Origin: Deltaproteobacteria bacterium RBG_13_61_14
GTDB lineage: Bacteria > RBG-13-61-14
Assembly (NCBI GenBank): GCA_001797815.1
Contig: MGQK01000072.1
Span: 1-8,208, forward strand
Length of the DNA: 8,208 nt
Direction of reading: 5' to 3'
Shown here: positions 2-8,208 of the stretch, piece by piece
Numbering within the stretch: position 1 is the stretch's first letter
Layout of the letters: each line of letters starts with the position of its first letter
The notes under the pieces: generated by a model
The model's input: the letters and a program-made list of their open reading frames with translations, nothing else
Told to the model about the DNA's origin: nothing
The model's database searches: none
Translations under genes and position numbers: made by a program

Positions 2-1402
2 GGCGAATATCGTAATGCGGAGATTTCTCTGTTCGTAACGGTGGAAGATGATAATCGCGACCTCAGCAACGAATCATTGACCATCAACACCAATTCTTAC
101 TTCATGGACTCCCTCATCGTGCTTGAGGATGAGAACACCTACTTCCTCCATGCCCAGGCGGCTGACCTGGCCGGTAACCCTGCCGTGCCAATCGAGATGA
201 CCTTTGTCCTCGATAAAACCAAGCCGGCAATCGTTATCACCGGTGCCGAGGATGGAAAATATTACAACTACGACATCGTCTTGCATGGAACAGTGGTGGA
301 TCTGCATCGGAACCTTCTCGCCGAAATCCTCACCGTTAATGGCATGCCTAAACTCATGGATGTGGATATCCTACTCTCGAATGAAATGCCCCATGTCGTC
401 CATGCCGAGGCCGCTGACCTCGCAGGGAATGCCGCAGATCCGGTAGATCTGAGTTTCGTTATCGATAAAACCGCGCCGGAAATCATCATCACCGGTGTGG
501 TGGACGGTGTGACATACAATGAAGACGTGACCCCTCACATCGAGGTGAGCGATCCATATCTCGATTCATACACCATCACCCTCAATGGCGTGCCTTTTGT
601 GAGCGATACGCCGATCACCGAGGATGGAGTATATCTTCTGGTGGTGGATGCAACGGACCTGGCGAGTAACCATTCACACCGGGAAGTTTTGTTCGAAGTG
701 CGGAAGATCCTTCTCGAAGTTATCAAGGAAATTCTTGACCCAAGACCCTCGGTGCTGGTCTGGCTGCGGCTGGGAAAGGATCGTAGCATGAACCCCGTGG
801 CCGTGGGTTCCTGGATTGAACAGGTGCTGGATAGCGCAAACATTGATTACCTGATCACGAACGATGAAGCCACATTCGTGGATGAAATGCGCACCGGCTT
901 TTACAATGTTTTTGTGGTTGTAAATATCGGCAAGACCAACGCGACTAATGCCGAAATCGAAGGCCGAGTCCTGGCCGGAGATGGCCTGATCGCTCTCAAA
1001 AACCATCCCGAGGAATTGCCCAAGGTCAGGGATCTCTTGGGCGTGCATTGGCTGGGCCGGCGCTGTTCGGAGGATGATCACCAGATCGTGATGGTAGATT
1101 CTGCGATTTCCCCTGCGGGTAGTTTCACGGTGCATGGAAAGTTTAGCGTCACCAACATGGAGTCCTGGGGGGCCCAGCCGCTAGGAGAATTTACCGACGG
1201 CGCCACCGATCCCAAGCCGGCGGTAACTCTCAATCCCTATGGTCTGGGCCTCGGACGGCGGCACGGTGGAGGCCAACCAGATCACCTGGCTACGCTACCT
1301 CAACACCGGCGATCACTTGAGCCTGGATTTTGGTCTCCGCCTCCCGGACCTGGTCGGCTCCTCATCGCCTGGCAGGCTAAAAGTGCGCTAGTAAATCCAT
1401 GA
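2..1402 (+). CDS. Tandem Ig-like repeat surface/secreted protein, 5' partial, frameshifted near its 3' end
   Basis: The frame is open from base 2, so the GTG at 41 is probably internal and the gene begins left of the window. Numbering from that GTG, three Ig-like repeats are visible: to about 62, 63-146 and 147-222. The first two end in an ADLAGN motif followed by F-V-x-D-K-T-x-P, typical of bacterial Ig-like domains in exported proteins. Residues 236-340 look like an alpha/beta domain (VLVWLRLG; later AGDGLIALKNHPEELPKVRDL). After NPYGLG (residue ~403) the composition becomes R/H/G/P-rich and stops making sense as protein. The +3 frame picks up at about 1248 with ASDGGTVEANQITWLRYL and runs to a TAG at 1389-1391, resembling a DUF11-like repeat. 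The gene is therefore broken by an indel or deletion near 1245, or carries a sequencing error. The function is probably adhesion or cell-surface structure, by inference from the repeats only. Confidence 0.75.
   Translation, partial: GEYRNAEISLFVTVEDDNRDLSNESLTINTNSYFMDSLIVLEDENTYFLHAQAADLAGNPAVPIEMTFVLDKTKPAIVITGAEDGKYYNYDIVLHGTVVDLHRNLLAEILTVNGMPKLMDVDILLSNEMPHVVHAEAADLAGNAADPVDLSFVIDKTAPEIIITGVVDGVTYNEDVTPHIEVSDPYLDSYTITLNGVPFVSDTPITEDGVYLLVVDATDLASNHSHREVLFEVRKILLEVIKEILDPRPSVLVWLRLGKDRSMNPVAVGSWIEQVLDSANIDYLITNDEATFVDEMRTGFYNVFVVVNIGKTNATNAEIEGRVLAGDGLIALKNHPEELPKVRDLLGVHWLGRRCSEDDHQIVMVDSAISPAGSFTVHGKFSVTNMESWGAQPLGEFTDGATDPKPAVTLNPYGLGLGRRHGGGQPDHLATLPQHRRSLEPGFWSPPPGPGRLLIAWQAKSALVNP
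1240..1391 (+). pseudogene. Out-of-frame continuation of the Ig-like protein (DUF11-like tail)
   Basis: From about 1248 the +3 frame reads A-S-D-G-G-T-V-E-A-N-Q-I-T-W and later TGDHLSLDFGLRLPDLVGS. This has the alternating hydrophobic pattern and the TW/TGD landmarks of DUF11-type repeats in secreted proteins. It ends at TAG 1389-1391 without completing a domain. The upstream frame is +2, so a net one-base shift is needed to join the two. DUF11-type repeats usually have an 'LPxGL' strand directly before this segment. Here the alpha/beta domain abuts it, so an internal deletion with microhomology is as plausible as a single inserted G in the GGG at 1246-1248. Confidence 0.6.
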
Positions 1403-2657: not shown

Positions 2658-2867
2658 GTGAAGAAAGCCCTTCAGAAAGCCCTCAAATGGCATGCCCTCC
2701 TGGACTCCGGCCAGATGCAAGACCAGGCCGAAATCGCTCGCAAGAACGGCCTCTCCCGCGCCCGGATCACCCAAATCAGGTCCAGACCGACCGCTCCTTG
2801 CAAAATGCAAGCAAAGGTTTTGAGGAAAAGGAGAACGCAGGGTTCTGCTCAGACCGCTCGATGGTAG
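2658..2867 (+). pseudogene. Truncated second copy of the ParB-like helix-turn-helix gene
   Basis: From GTG 2658 the first 40 residues contain LQKALKWHALLDSGQM and QAEIARKNGLSRARITQI. I count 23 identities in 36 aligned positions with residues 40-75 of the 1665-2048 protein. The similarity ends at base 2777, directly after the TQI of the recognition helix. The remaining residues (RSRPTAPCKMQAKVL...) are unrelated, and the LLxLAPxIQExIL and RPI parts are absent. The copy is diverged at DNA level, so it is not a recent duplication. The frame upstream is closed by stops. It is most likely a non-functional fragment cut at a rearrangement junction. Confidence 0.6.
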
Positions 2868-3036
2868 CATCATTATCCTTCTTGTGCCAGATGCTGGTCA
2901 AGCGGTTCTGGACATCGTAGGCGTAATCGGTGTAGCTCACCCGCGTCACGCCATCGGCCTGATAATATTCAGTCCGCGACCGCATCCGCTGCAGGTTATA
3001 CGAATACCGCGCCAGCCGCACCCCGTCCTGGAACAC
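2776..3036 (-). pseudogene. RHS/YD-repeat protein fragment
   Basis: The minus-strand frame reads VFQDGVRLARYSYN, RMRSRTEYYQADG, TDYAYDVQNRLTSIWHKK. The Y-D-x-x-N-R-L-T-S motif and the spaced aromatic/glycine pattern are those of RHS/YD repeats, found in large secreted or contact-dependent toxin proteins. Only about two repeat units are present (about bases 2870-3060). Family members normally run to a thousand residues or more. The frame stays open upstream to a TGA at 3120-3118, with no credible start. At the other end it runs through non-RHS residues to a stop at 2778-2776, exactly where the truncated helix-turn-helix copy ends on the other strand. This is a remnant and is unlikely to be functional. 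Confidence 0.65.
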
Positions 3037-3067: not shown

Positions 3068-3198
3068 GGAGGGATTAACTGATTTTTTACATTTTCCTCC
3101 CACCCATCTGGCTTCGTTCAAGCCCTGGCAGGCCCGCAGTCCCCCTTTCGGAAAATGATTTTCCATCGGTTAACTGACCCCTGTCAGTTAATCACTCC
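3068..3198. repeat. Short element bounded by 15-bp inverted repeats built on GATTAACTGA
   Basis: GGAGGGATTAACTGA at 3068-3082 is matched on the opposite strand by GGAGTGATTAACTGA at 3198-3184, 14 of 15 identical and bounding 131 bp. A third TTAACTGAC lies at 3170-3178. Inside is a near-perfect palindrome GGAAAATGATTTTCC (3150-3164). The layout resembles a REP/MITE-like non-autonomous element or a pair of REP units. No transposase is in the window. The right arm overlaps the stop codon of the amidotransferase gene. Confidence 0.5.
3170..3191. repeat. Perfect 9-bp stem hairpin just after the amidotransferase stop
   Basis: TTAACTGAC (3170-3178), a CCCT loop and GTCAGTTAA (3183-3191) form a perfect stem. 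On the minus strand it begins at the base after the TGA stop (3194-3192). No T-run follows, so it does not fit an ordinary Rho-independent terminator. It could still stabilise the 3' end of the mRNA. It is part of the TTAACTGA inverted-repeat cluster. Confidence 0.6.
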
Positions 3199-5801
3199 GG
3201 CACTTCCATCTTTGCCAGCACCTTCAGTTTCACCGCTCGCACCTTGCAATAGACTTCTGGCGGGGTTTTTTGCTGGCCATTCACCATGAGGAGATCCTGT
3301 TCGATGGAGATGCCGAAATATCGCTCGTTCGCCTCCAGGTAAGGCCGGATCAAGTTCCAGTCCTCATCGCTCAACTCCGCGAACTCCCCGCCGTTCAACT
3401 GCTCGGGCACCAGCTTACGGAACGGATCGCGCACGAAGATGGCGCCGCCCGACGCCAGGGAGAAGAGGTTGGAGCCGGGGTAAGGAGATTCCTGGTCCTT
3501 CACCCGGCCTTGCTCATCGAACTCGATCCCGTTCAGGATCACGAAGCCGCCGCCGCGGTGCGGGTCGCCGGCCATGAACGATTCGGCCAGGTAGTCGAGA
3601 CAGGTGCCGTTGATCACCACCCGGGGCCAGCCCACGGCGTTGATCAGCGGCCGGCCGGCGGCGTTACCCATCACGTAAACCTCGCCGCCCTTGGCGCCGT
3701 AGAGGAAGGCCTGGCCGACGTCGCCGTAAACCATCAGCCGGCCCCGCTTCAGGATCTGACCGAGCTGATCCTGGCCGTTGCCGTGCACGTGGATTTCCGC
3801 GCCGTCAATGCCCGAGGCCAGGTAATCGCCGGAGGAATCGAACACGTCCAGGCGGACGCCTTCCGAATTTGGACCCAGGCCGCAGCCGATAAAGCGCTGG
3901 CCCCGGAGGCCATAGACCAGGAACCGTTTCCAACCCAACTGCAAAGCCCGGACGATCAGGCGGGAGAGGCATTCCTCGCCTTCCGGCGGAAATTTCTCCG
4001 CGAAAAGGACCAGCGCCTTTTCCTTGCCGGCGGGCGGACGCAAGTACCATCGGGTTTCCCAATCCATCCGTTTCCATGGTCCCGCTTGCGCGCCGGCCAG
4101 AGGCGGGACCGAATCGAGCAAGCGGTGAATGGCCCCGCTGATGATTTCCCGGATGGCGCTGGGTTTTTTCTTTCCGCAAGCATAGCGGCGGTCGAGGAAC
4201 AGGGTCAGCAATTGCAGGGCCCCCTCGCGGCGGCGGTCATCCGCCTCGGCCAGACGGGAAATCAAGTTGACCAGCCATTGCAGCTGGCCGAAATTCCAGC
4301 CCGGAATTTCCTGGACCAGACGGGCAAAAACCTCCTGGGTGCGACCGTTCTTTGCGGCCGGCTCGATCCACTTCTGGATTGCATCCGCCTTCTTCGGAGC
4401 CGTTGGCTCGGCCCCGGCCTGGAGATTCCACTCGCCGGCGGGAGCGGTGATGGCCCGGCCGAATTTATCGGCGCAGAAAACCCGGGAATCGCCGTTCTTG
4501 CCCTCGACGGTAAAGACAAAAGCCCCGCCGTCGGTGTGCGAGCCGCCGCGCGCGTTCCAGTAGCGGTCGGCCTGGAGGCGGAAGCGCGGGTCTTCGGAAG
4601 CGAGGGAGTGGAGGGTGGCGTCAATCGCCTGTTTTTCCGAGGCGATGAGCCCGATGGAGATTTCGCCTTCTTGGAGCGCGAAGACCTGGGGCCGGAGCAT
4701 GGAGGTGTCGGTGATGCCGAGGAGCCGGAAGCGGTTCTGGTCCGGCTCGGACTGGGCGATGATGAAGAACCACGGCCCGTCGGGCGAGCTGTGCACGTGC
4801 AGCGATTGGATGGCGCGGTAGATGCGCCTTTTCTCTTCCGGCAGTCGCTCGAAGTCGAGTTCGGTGGTGGGCGCCAGAGCCTCGATCACGTATTCCAGGG
4901 GATAGCCGTAAACCCGGTGCCAGAGGTCGAAGAGCAGGACCGAGACCTCGGTGTCGGTGAGGAACTGGGGCGCGATGTGGTGCTGGCGGAGGTATTCGGA
5001 GATGCTGTAAAAATTGGCGAAGTCGCCGTTGTGGACCAGGGCCTGGTTCAACCCGATGAACGGATGCGCTCCCCCGGGATGCCAAACCCGGCCCTTGGTC
5101 GGGTAACGCTGGTGCGCGATCCAAACCTGGGCGCGCACGTCCTCCAACCCGTAATACTGAACCACCTGCTCCGCGTAGCCCACCACTTTGAAGATGGCCA
5201 GGTTGCGGGCATGCGAAAGCACGAATGCCCGCTTCTCGCCCAGGGAGGAGTAGAACTGGGTATTCAGCTGATAGCTGTTCTGGTAAATGAACTCGTCTTC
5301 CACCACCCTGGGCGGCGCCTCGGCCAGCCCGTTCTCCGCGGCGAACTTTTCCCGCGCATCCTCCTGGACCCGGACAAAGTATTGCACGATGTCCGGCGGT
5401 TTTACCTCCAGGCCCACCTCTCGAAAGTCGGTCGCCGGCCGCAGGCGGCGCTGGTGATCAATCCGGAGCCAGGGGCGGAGCCAGGCGGCTTCCACCTCCG
5501 CCTCGGCCGCCGGGTCCAAGAGCGCCACCTGGAGCAGGTAGTCCTCCCGCAGCGTCTTCTCGTCCACCCCCCACTGCTCGGGGAGCAGCCCGGCCGCGGC
5601 GATCCCGCCGCCCTTGCCGTTGCCCCGGTTGTGCATCTGGATGGATGGCTCGAAGATGTGCCGGCCCCGCACCGGCACGCTCGCCGCAAAGCCCACCACT
5701 CCGCAGCCGCCTTCTTCCGCGGCCTTGGCCGCCGGCGGCTGAGGCTGACCGGCGAGTAACCGCTTTCTTGAATCCAGGATGTTGCTGACTTGCGCTCGCA
5801 T
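3192..5801 (-). CDS. Glutamate synthase subunit: class II glutamine amidotransferase fused to a GXGXG domain
   Basis: Numbered from the ATG at 5801 (869 residues). Residues 31-460 form a class II (Ntn-type) amidotransferase that hydrolyses glutamine to glutamate and ammonia. The putative nucleophile is Cys33 in GGCGVVGFAAS; other conserved sites are HQRYPT (Arg232), HNGDFAN (Asn258-Gly259) and LTDTEV (about 281-286). About 460-605 is a helical linker with no motif I know. Residues ~613-765 are the GXGXG beta-helix of glutamate synthase (VYGDVGQAFLYGAKGGEVYV). The end carries the conserved tail (NLFSLASGGAIFVRDPFRK, QLNGGEFAELSDEDW). Standard GltB holds the FMN domain between these two modules; here it is in the adjacent upstream gene. 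I chose the ATG because AAGGAG precedes it. A TTG at 5822 would add 7 residues and overlap the upstream stop (TTGA), but has no ribosome binding site. The ~32-residue leader before Cys33 may be a cleaved propeptide. The protein is expected to be cytoplasmic. The same GATase/GXGXG modules occur in N-methylglutamate synthase, which is the main alternative. Confidence 0.9.
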   Translation of the reverse strand: MRAQVSNILDSRKRLLAGQPQPPAAKAAEEGGCGVVGFAASVPVRGRHIFEPSIQMHNRGNGKGGGIAAAGLLPEQWGVDEKTLREDYLLQVALLDPAAEAEVEAAWLRPWLRIDHQRRLRPATDFREVGLEVKPPDIVQYFVRVQEDAREKFAAENGLAEAPPRVVEDEFIYQNSYQLNTQFYSSLGEKRAFVLSHARNLAIFKVVGYAEQVVQYYGLEDVRAQVWIAHQRYPTKGRVWHPGGAHPFIGLNQALVHNGDFANFYSISEYLRQHHIAPQFLTDTEVSVLLFDLWHRVYGYPLEYVIEALAPTTELDFERLPEEKRRIYRAIQSLHVHSSPDGPWFFIIAQSEPDQNRFRLLGITDTSMLRPQVFALQEGEISIGLIASEKQAIDATLHSLASEDPRFRLQADRYWNARGGSHTDGGAFVFTVEGKNGDSRVFCADKFGRAITAPAGEWNLQAGAEPTAPKKADAIQKWIEPAAKNGRTQEVFARLVQEIPGWNFGQLQWLVNLISRLAEADDRRREGALQLLTLFLDRRYACGKKKPSAIREIISGAIHRLLDSVPPLAGAQAGPWKRMDWETRWYLRPPAGKEKALVLFAEKFPPEGEECLSRLIVRALQLGWKRFLVYGLRGQRFIGCGLGPNSEGVRLDVFDSSGDYLASGIDGAEIHVHGNGQDQLGQILKRGRLMVYGDVGQAFLYGAKGGEVYVMGNAAGRPLINAVGWPRVVINGTCLDYLAESFMAGDPHRGGGFVILNGIEFDEQGRVKDQESPYPGSNLFSLASGGAIFVRDPFRKLVPEQLNGGEFAELSDEDWNLIRPYLEANERYFGISIEQDLLMVNGQQKTPPEVYCKVRAVKLKVLAKMEVPE

Positions 5802-5803
5802 GA

Positions 5804-5809
5804 CTCCTT
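5804..5809 (-). promoter_or_regulatory. Shine-Dalgarno sequence deciding the amidotransferase start
   Basis: The minus strand reads GGGGGAAGGAGTCATG. AAGGAG sits only 2 bases before the ATG at 5801, tighter than usual; pairing through the AAGG part gives about 4 bases. It favours ATG over the TTG at 5822, which has no such signal. The 17-base gap after the upstream stop (5819) suggests translational coupling. Confidence 0.55.
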
Positions 5810-5818
5810 CCCCCTTGC

Positions 5819-8208
5819 TCAAGCAGACTTGCGGGCCGGTTCCAACTCCGGCTCCCGGCCCTGAAAATCGAAATGGGTGAGCAGGTCCGACCGGCCCGTC
5901 AGCTCACGGACGCTTTGCATCCCCAAGCGCCAGAGGATCTCGCGCAGTTGGAGACAATAGGAATGGAACAGGTTGATGATCCGTTGCGCCGCCCAGTCCG
6001 GGTCCAAGAGCCCGGCCAGCTCCGGGTCGGTGGTGGCAATGCCCCGGGGACAGCCCCGGCCGCTTTCGCAGTTGCCGCACCGGATGCACTCCAGCGCCAC
6101 CAGCTCCGCGGTGCCGAGCACCACCCCGTCCGCGCCCAGGGCAATGGCTTTGGCCATGTCCCAGGCGGTGCGGATCCCGCCGGAGGCGATCAGGGTGATC
6201 TGATCGCGGACGCCCTCCTGGATCAGGAAGCGGTGCACCTTGGGGATCGCGTATTCGATGGGCATGGCGATGTTCTTCTTGGCGATGTCCGGCGCCGCGC
6301 CGGTGCCGCCGTAAGAGCCGTCGAGGTGGAGGATGTGCGCGCCCGCGTAGTAACTCCCGACGGCCACCATGTCCACGTCGGTGGGGGTCGAGACCTTGAC
6401 CGCGACCAGGGCTTTGGGGTTCAGGTGCTTGACCCAGTCCACGTGCTTCTTGTGGTCTTCCACCGAATAGACGGAGTGAAAGGGAAAGGGCGAGAACAAC
6501 GAAGAGCCTTCAACCGCCTCCCGCATCTTCGCCACCGCCGGGGTCACCTTGTCGCCGAGCAGGTGCCCGCCCAGCCCGGGCTTGGCGCCTTGGGCATACT
6601 TTAACTCCACGATCCGTACCCGCTGGATGGTCTCTTCCCGCACCCCGAACAGGCCGGTCGCCACCTGGGTGATCACGTGGTCATCATACTCGGTCAACTC
6701 CTCCGGAAAACCGCCCTCCCCGGTGCAGGTGAAGGAATCAAACGCCTGGTAAGCGCGGGCCCGGGCGATCATGGTGGCGAGGCTGATCGAGCCGAAGCTC
6801 ATGCCCCCGCCGTAAACCGGGAACCCGATGGTCACCTGGGGCCGGCCGTCGTCCCGGCGGTTGAGCGGGAGGCGGAGGTCAATCGCCTCGGGCGGGAGCG
6901 CCGGCCGCCTGGGAAAGAGGAAATCCATCCGGTCAAAGCCTCCGCCGGAAGCGCCGACCTTGTCCTCCAGACCCAGGTCCTCGGCCGGCGGCCGGCCGGT
7001 CTCGGCCTGGATCCAGGTGCTGACCAAAAGGGCCGCGGTCCAGCGCGGGTCGCCGAAGGCCAAGAACATCGGGTCCGGCCCCACCCGCAGCGCCAGCTCC
7101 GGGCAATGGTCCACGCAATATTCGCCCTTGGCGCGACAGAATTCGGGTCCGCGGCAAAACTGGGAGCGGGGCGCGAGCACCCGCTTGCCGGCCCGGATGT
7201 GCACGCCATAGGCGCAGACCTCGGCGCACTTGCCGCAGGAGTGGCAGGCCGCGCTCCGCGCCGCCTTGTATTTGCCGAAGGGGTTGCGGAAGCGGGAAGG
7301 GCAGGGCGCCACCAGGGCGGCTAGGCGCGGGTGGAGGCCCGGTTCCGGATCCGCCTCCAGGGCCGCCGGCAGAGGTTCGGGCTCCAACTCGATTTTCGGA
7401 ACCGGCTCGGGTTCTCTCTTCACCGGTTCCCCTGCTTTGCGCTCGCCAAAGAGCGGGCCAAAGCATTCCCGCTCCAACTCCTCGAAGAACATGGCCCGGC
7501 CCGCCTCGCCCCGCAGGCGGCGGACCTCGCGCAGCCCCATGGCGCCCAGCACCTCGAGGAGCTGGGCGTGCCAGGACCCGATCAGGTTCACGATCCGGCT
7601 CGCCGCCCAGTCCTCCGGCACCCGGTCAATTTGGACCGGACAGGCCATGCCTTCGCCGCACCCCGGGCACAGCCGGCATTCCAGGGCCACCAGCAACGCC
7701 TCGTCCACCCCCACGCCGTCCGCGCCGCAGATGATGAGCTTGGCCAGGTGCTCGGCCAGGGCCACCCCGCCGGAAACCAGGAGGGTCAGCTCTTCGCGCA
7801 CGCCCGCTTCCACCAGGCGCAGGTGCACCTCGCGCACCAGGCCGGTGACAAAGCGGTCCTGGCGCCGGCCAAAACCCCGGCCGCGGTCATCGGCAAAGAG
7901 GTGGAGGATCTCGGCGCCCGCGGCCGCGAGCCGGGAAGCGCGCTCGCCGGCTAGCTCGTCCAGGGGCAGGCGGATGGAGAGGATCGTGTCCGGGCTTTGC
8001 GCCTTTAATTGTTTTGCAACCTGAATTACATTTTCCGAATAGGCCAGCTCCTGAAGCGCGCCCCCGCTGCCGGCGGCATCCTCCAGCCGCTCGGGATCCA
8101 GCTTGACGATGAGGTGGTCTTGAAGCTCGCCCAGGCCGTTCCGGACCTCCTCCGCGGTGGCCACGGCATAAGTGCCGAGCCGGCGGGCGGCTTCAGCCAT
8201 GGCCCGGC
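5819..8208 (-). CDS. gltB: Glutamate synthase FMN/Fe-S subunit with ferredoxin domain and degenerate N-terminal domain copy (5' partial)
   Basis: Numbered from the ATG at 8200, which is probably internal: the frame runs on to the window edge and aligns inside the duplicated barrel. Residues 454-770 are the FMN-binding glutamate synthase domain, which reduces 2-iminoglutarate to glutamate. Visible are PVYGGGMSFGSISL (461-474), TGEGGFPEELTEYDDH, AKPGLGGHLLGDKV (539-552), HLDGSYGGTGAAP (625-637), the phosphate-site region SGGIRTAWDMAKAIALGADG (673-692) and a cysteine cluster at 705, 708, 711 and 717. Residues 319-366 form a ferredoxin-like domain: Cx2Cx2Cx3C at 319-329, then C349, C355, C362, C366-Pro. 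Residues 1-230 are a diverged copy of the barrel's second part (LVSGGVALAEHLAKLIICGA at 141-160) with cysteines 175, 178, 181 and 187 in identical spacing. A Pro/Glu-rich linker (about 256-288) follows. It lies directly upstream of the amidotransferase/GXGXG gene in an apparent operon. The ferredoxin domain and lack of a GltD-like gene suggest ferredoxin as electron donor. Confidence 0.9.
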   Translation of the reverse strand, partial: RAMAEAARRLGTYAVATAEEVRNGLGELQDHLIVKLDPERLEDAAGSGGALQELAYSENVIQVAKQLKAQSPDTILSIRLPLDELAGERASRLAAAGAEILHLFADDRGRGFGRRQDRFVTGLVREVHLRLVEAGVREELTLLVSGGVALAEHLAKLIICGADGVGVDEALLVALECRLCPGCGEGMACPVQIDRVPEDWAASRIVNLIGSWHAQLLEVLGAMGLREVRRLRGEAGRAMFFEELERECFGPLFGERKAGEPVKREPEPVPKIELEPEPLPAALEADPEPGLHPRLAALVAPCPSRFRNPFGKYKAARSAACHSCGKCAEVCAYGVHIRAGKRVLAPRSQFCRGPEFCRAKGEYCVDHCPELALRVGPDPMFLAFGDPRWTAALLVSTWIQAETGRPPAEDLGLEDKVGASGGGFDRMDFLFPRRPALPPEAIDLRLPLNRRDDGRPQVTIGFPVYGGGMSFGSISLATMIARARAYQAFDSFTCTGEGGFPEELTEYDDHVITQVATGLFGVREETIQRVRIVELKYAQGAKPGLGGHLLGDKVTPAVAKMREAVEGSSLFSPFPFHSVYSVEDHKKHVDWVKHLNPKALVAVKVSTPTDVDMVAVGSYYAGAHILHLDGSYGGTGAAPDIAKKNIAMPIEYAIPKVHRFLIQEGVRDQITLIASGGIRTAWDMAKAIALGADGVVLGTAELVALECIRCGNCESGRGCPRGIATTDPELAGLLDPDWAAQRIINLFHSYCLQLREILWRLGMQSVRELTGRSDLLTHFDFQGREPELEPARKSA

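Follow-up and report, generated by a model that had tools for sequence, protein, structure and literature searches.

An ancient broken copy of GltB paired or fused with the active subunit in many anaerobic bacteria, and its possible role as the wiring of glutamate synthase

The window, i.e. the whole stretch of 8,208 nucleotides analysed here, corresponds to C72:1-8208 in the genome of Deltaproteobacteria bacterium RBG_13_61_14 and is adjoined by a 7-base N run. On the minus strand it carries two glutamate synthase genes, one of which holds two copies of the FMN/synthase subunit GltB, a degenerate N-terminal copy (N copy, GltB') and a catalytic C-terminal copy (C copy):

5819..8206, minus strand: the 3' 795 codons of the fused gltB'-gltB gene, an open frame holding both copies.
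7430..8206, minus strand: the portion of the degenerate N copy inside the window, with most of the barrel and the C-terminal helices.
7640..7678, minus strand: C-x2-C-x2-C-x5-C cluster motif of the N copy (C177/C180/C183/C189), present in 74/75 homologues.
7316..7429, minus strand: Pro/Glu-rich linker joining the two copies, with approximate borders; in split relatives a gene boundary is found instead.
5822..7315, minus strand: catalytic C copy, an archaeal-type GltB with 2x[4Fe-4S] ferredoxin domain, FMN barrel and cluster motif.
6050..6088, minus strand: C-x2-C-x2-C-x5-C cluster motif of the C copy (C707/710/713/719).
3192..5822, minus strand: 876-codon frame for the glutaminase (class II amidotransferase) and GXGXG subunit, with the likely real start at ATG 5801.

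The glutaminase subunit contains the cysteine of GGCGVVGF together with HQRYPTKG and HNGDF, all invariant or nearly so among 68 homologues (GGCG cysteine, RYPTxG and HNGDF at 99-100%), and its GXGXG domain is recognised with an E-value of 3.7e-10. Elsewhere in the window, a short frame at 2776-3036 (minus strand) resembles the remains of an RHS/YD-repeat protein, no other part of which lies nearby, and repeated Ig-like units (DKTKPAIVITG...DKTAPEIIITG) at 2-1402 (plus strand) apparently belong to a cell-surface protein truncated by the contig end.

The window truncates the fused gene, whose frame crosses the N run (C72:8209-8215) and reaches an ATG at 8815, giving 998 codons. Hence, an earlier, sequence-only reading of the window had no more than the end of the N copy at hand, and the ferredoxin domain and the WTDMSEIVRPTRDGIHGREYI segment of this copy lie outside it. 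The N-terminal half of the 998-codon gene is a second, degenerate copy of the GltB in its C-terminal half. Within the same frame, the two parts share 68/194 identities (35%, E 3e-26), and the Pfam Glu_synthase domain, found in the C copy with an E-value of 1.3e-105, also matches the N part taken alone (E 1.1e-11). The degenerate second FMN barrel proposed by the sequence-only reading is thus a real duplicate, and the match it had noted between residues 94-225 and 618-765 was borne out, although the true match is longer (67-247 against about 592-785). The copy is, however, not a terminal fragment. Upstream of the window, a ferredoxin-like domain with two four-cysteine groups adds eight more cysteines, which identifies the N copy as a whole degenerate GltB. 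The same upstream sequence rules out a single extra N-terminal Fe-S cluster, as had been supposed, since the N copy has ligands for three.

A contig scan for homologues returned 308 related stretches; the best 80 of these all contain both GltB copies and, together with the genome of the window and two more genomes, form a set of 83 loci. Most of these loci are split: the copies are fused in only 31/83 and encoded by adjacent genes of about 470 and 515 codons in 52/83. With the N copy being a distinct paralogue and a separate gene in these 52 loci, the suggested 'internal pseudo-dimerisation' can at most describe the fused state of a heteromer. According to the record titles, double-GltB loci occur in Desulfobacterales, Desulfarculaceae, Syntrophobacteraceae, Planctomycetota, Verrucomicrobiota, Chloroflexota, Nitrospirota, Fibrobacterota and Poribacteria. 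Three species of the phylum of the window were covered, and the N copy has no match in the other two. A maximum-likelihood tree unites all N copies in a single clade (100/100) and all C copies in a second one (100/99). These two clades are each other's closest relatives (100/98), with archaeal-type and classical large GltB outside them, which dates the GltB duplication as old. As the fused loci are nested among the split ones, the duplication came first and the fusion afterwards.

The FMN/substrate motifs GAKPGxGG, GGTGAA and TGEGG are present in 75/75 C copies and in 0/75 N copies. In the N copy of the window, the AKPGLGG segment is missing, GGTGAAP is altered and the GT after the phosphate-site strand has become VD, as described before; taking RGRGFGR as the counterpart of GGTGAAP is alignment-dependent. 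Twelve cysteines are kept, the eight of the ferredoxin domain in 75/75 N copies and the four after the barrel, which have the same spacing as their counterparts in the C copy, in 74/75. Loss of the catalytic motifs with retention of the cluster ligands, first recognised in this one gene, is therefore a fixed trait of the 75 aligned homologues. The N copy has presumably lost FMN, and its clusters are predicted to be occupied. The one exception in the four cysteines is locus L048 (L048:4971-6395), whose N copy has other residues at all four positions (ALESRLEDPPVDGFQDPA) but is otherwise intact, including the eight ferredoxin cysteines. In this natural variant the third cluster has been lost as a whole, so that it is dispensable in at least one lineage.

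The N copy is less conserved than the C copy in 2774/2775 pairs, and its reading frame is interrupted by the seven N, as would be expected of a decaying duplicate or an assembly artefact. However, dN/dS in close pairs is 0.04-0.23 for the N copy (0.04-0.13 for the C copy), so that the N copy is under purifying selection, and it forms one clade (100/100) across phyla and is intact in 83 loci. Decay or artefact is refuted by this conservation, and we give it practically no credence.

AlphaFold2 models the N copy as a complete eight-stranded barrel, with a pLDDT above 85 for most barrel residues, so the barrel expected from the window is predicted in full. With the four cysteines conserved as well, neither of the two outcomes that would have refuted the sequence-only reading occurred, L048 apart. 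The ferredoxin domain, the other iron-sulphur part and the invariant segment have low pLDDT values. For neither the N copy nor any close relative was a solved structure found; the nearest by sequence profile are classical glutamate synthase (GltS) alpha subunits. The best solved match of the model is the synthase domain of classical glutamate synthase (6s6s_A, residues 788-1196), with a Z-score of 22.1 and an rmsd of 3.6 over 286 residues, as determined with a second aligner that ranked it top among the best 1000 Foldseek chains. The full-length two-copy model (pTM 0.67) gives no reliable interface between the halves, its confidence being too low for their intramolecular contact to be read from it.

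The most conserved part of the N copy is a segment upstream of the window, and the invariant PVSGAGY...WTDMSEIVRPTRDGIHGREYI segment is specific to this copy, as is a C-terminal RGExGRxMFFEDLE segment. Both N-copy-specific segments could be taken to mean that the remodelled barrel binds another ligand or catalyses another reaction. Yet the middle of the barrel is the least conserved part, and of the known ligand-site motifs none is kept beyond the SGG strand, which makes such a role very improbable.

The C copy resembles GltB of the archaeal-type (split) GltS in its PF01645 domain, 2x[4Fe-4S] ferredoxin domain, FMN/2-oxoglutarate motifs and cluster motif, and in both systems the glutaminase and GXGXG parts are separate from GltB. 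In contrast to the archaeal type, GltB is doubled here, one residue is inserted in the cluster motif, glutaminase and GXGXG are fused in the 876-codon frame, and an flpD gene always lies upstream. A further difference concerns the segment QVTNPxxDPLRE, located between the ferredoxin domain and the barrel in 13/13 ordinary archaeal-type GltB controls, whereas QVTNPxxDxLRE is found in 0/75 C copies. An altered version, VRPTRDGIHGRE, occurs in 73/75 N copies. The alignments thus show a reciprocal loss, in which the C copy keeps catalysis and the N copy an altered form of the segment that the C copy lost, and from this pattern we infer that one copy completes the other.

A similar layout is known from the central domain of classical GltS (alpha subunit, GltB, 150 kDa), which is also a degenerate barrel placed before the FMN barrel (PMC8097209). 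The sequence-only reading knew of no described case; for the degenerate barrel a precedent thus exists, although the classical domain is without clusters and stems from a different duplication. Like the N/C pair, the central domain carries the segment (MGxD...QVTNPPIDxLRE) that its FMN barrel lacks: QVTNPxxDxLRE is present in the central domain in 8/8 and in the FMN barrel in 0/8 classical large GltS. Unlike the N copy, it has neither cluster cysteines nor a ferredoxin domain. In profile-profile comparisons the N copy scored 445 with the C copy, 381 with archaeal-type GltB, 102.5 with the classical synthase domain and 31.7 (probability 9%) with the classical central domain, which rules out the N copy as an orthologue of the latter. 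The degenerate-barrel layout therefore arose at least twice, and the doubled-GltB family alone retained the clusters. Compared by profile, the classical central domain and archaeal-type GltB match across 258 columns that stretch from the QVTNP segment as far as the C-terminal helices (probability 97%), and this alignment favours an origin of the central domain from a barrel duplication. In the classical large GltB loci L148-L160, the central domain aligns with archaeal-type GltB with the flavin and cysteine segments deleted.

The segment in the classical central domain includes Met479. The cysteines of the N copy could be structural, and GltB' might accordingly be a structural or regulatory pseudoenzyme only, which completes the tunnel and active site of the C copy and whose clusters hold the interface without carrying current. 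The location of the lost segment in the classical enzyme, the need for the [4Fe-4S] clusters of NADPH-GltS in subunit association (PMC8097209) and the persistence of L048 without the third cluster are in agreement with this. On the other hand, 8/8 invariant ferredoxin cysteines and an invariantly linked gene for a [2Fe-2S] carrier exceed the needs of a scaffold, and the C copy already has a ferredoxin domain of its own; we regard a purely structural role as quite unlikely.

The carrier gene is flpD. FlpD (PF02662) is the delta subunit of methyl-viologen-reducing hydrogenase and a [2Fe-2S] carrier. In the genome of the window the gene order is amt-like gene, glnA, flpD, metV, metF, gltB'-gltB, glutaminase/GXGXG. 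Wherever the contig extends far enough, an FlpD/MvhD gene is found upstream of the N copy (66/66 loci); in the other 17/83 the contig ends first. The FlpD cysteines C59, C84 and C89 are conserved at 100% and C30 at 97%, and the Pfam FlpD assignment was confirmed on four of the proteins. Beside ordinary archaeal-type GltB, FlpD was found in 0/12 controls, two of them on short contigs. The common core of the cluster is hence flpD, gltB', gltB and glutaminase. Some clusters encode a further FMN-type glutamate-synthase-like protein upstream of flpD (L066:492-2066, L081:2595-4214), of which the L066 protein matches PF01645 and the L081 protein was assigned from sequence likeness alone.

The gene cluster of the window's genome contains no gltD, and the GltD-like matches elsewhere in this genome are all below the curated cut-off. 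The genome is 95% complete and yielded no match to the glutamate dehydrogenase family and no other complete GltB. The fused GltB'-GltB system, being the sole complete GltB found, therefore probably carries ammonia assimilation in this organism; glnA and the Amt-like gene lie directly upstream of the cluster.

In NADPH-dependent GltS, electrons pass from the FAD on GltD over two [4Fe-4S] and one [3Fe-4S] clusters to FMN (PMC8097209). A likewise Fe-S relay would be expected to feed the FMN of the doubled system. Because its cluster has no GltD, and a three-cluster protein derived from GltB lies adjacent to the gene of a dedicated one-cluster carrier, the simplest reading, which we hold with moderate confidence, is that GltB' and FlpD form an electron-input arm replacing GltD. 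Duplication, fold, reciprocal loss, conservation, selection and gene order were computed, and it is from these that cluster occupancy, absence of FMN, docking and the path and direction of the electrons are proposed. On this reading, the window holds the fused form of a distinct glutamate synthase. GltB was duplicated long ago; the C copy stayed catalytic, and the N copy, which kept the ferredoxin domain, the third cluster and the invariant segment, would have lost FMN and 2-oxoglutarate binding and become a non-catalytic partner of the C copy. The [2Fe-2S] protein FlpD/MvhD would dock onto the ferredoxin domain of GltB'; the link between FlpD, GltB' and GltB is known from gene order and stands for association, not contact. 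Electrons would then run along a putative path through the clusters of GltB' to those of the C copy and on to its FMN, which would reduce 2-iminoglutarate made with ammonia from the glutaminase subunit. In this arrangement GltB' would stand in for GltD of the ordinary enzyme, and may in addition provide in trans the segment lost by the C copy, much as the central domain does in classical GltS. In the loci that have MetVF, it could be a second partner of this FlpD, either as client or as donor.

In 62 loci the contig covers 2 kb or more upstream; 52 of these contain metV and metF, and 10 lack metF. MetVF reductases are known to use either ferredoxin or MvhD together with Hdr subunits, as in types II and IV, type IV consisting of MetVF, MvhD and HdrCBA (PMC8760232). 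The cluster shares with the type IV reductase of Moorella (MetVF-MvhD-HdrABC) the adjacent metV, metF and mvhD/flpD, but has GltB'/GltB where the latter has HdrABC: in the genome of the window, hdrABC is absent from the cluster and the glutamate synthase genes occupy its place. The whole cluster might thus encode one redox supercomplex, in which electrons are exchanged between methylene/methyl-tetrahydrofolate and the synthesis of glutamate by way of MetVF, FlpD, GltB', GltB and glutaminase, and which might also represent a further type of MetVF methylenetetrahydrofolate reductase. Such partnerships of MetVF with FlpD (MvhD) are known, metV and metF lie next to FlpD in the 52 loci with their frames close to or overlapping neighbouring ones, and the genome of the window has a CODH/ACS match and a second metV-metF set with its own GltD-FlpD fusion. 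In this second set (L143:1552-5143, contig C49), where an N run masks part of metV, the two genes are preceded by a 695-codon GltD-like/ferredoxin/FlpD fusion, so that FlpD beside a two-cluster ferredoxin domain recurs. However, the 10 loci without metF beside the cluster rule out MetVF as an obligatory electron donor, i.e. it does not donate to FlpD everywhere, and in L061, L063 and L064 metVF is located downstream of the glutaminase gene with FlpD constant. Furthermore, on the short contig of L134 (L134:1-3588) metV and metF directly follow an ordinary archaeal-type GltB and a GXGXG gene with no FlpD, which is a second way in which metVF and glutamate synthase genes are linked, and the link to metVF may therefore be one of pathway only. 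We consider both the supercomplex and the further reductase type unlikely. The more general proposal that the GltB pseudoenzyme twin and FlpD form an electron-input arm which physically couples ammonia assimilation to the tetrahydrofolate C1 redox of MetVF in many anaerobic phyla, and thereby constitute a further class of glutamate synthase and at once an undescribed type of methylenetetrahydrofolate reductase, is put forward only tentatively, as a possibility we rather doubt.

Searches of the open-licence PMC literature brought up neither a doubled GltB nor FlpD with glutamate synthase nor MetVF within a glutamate synthase gene set. The parts belong to known families; what is new is how they are combined, together with the fixed pseudoenzyme twin and its carrier. 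Since the electron donors of archaeal-type GltS and of many MetVF are unsettled, it matters that a fixed gene set names a candidate wiring, FlpD and GltB', that can be tested. Independently of the classical enzyme, the N/C pair appears to be a case in which a duplicated FMN barrel splits its duties, with the flavin in one copy and the neighbouring segment in the other, and so parallels the origin that has been proposed for the glutamate synthase central domain (PMC8097209). In many anaerobic bacteria the active GltB has beside it, or joined to it, an ancient duplicate with a lost catalytic site, retained Fe-S ligands and a linked electron-carrier gene, which suggests that this broken copy became the wiring of the enzyme.
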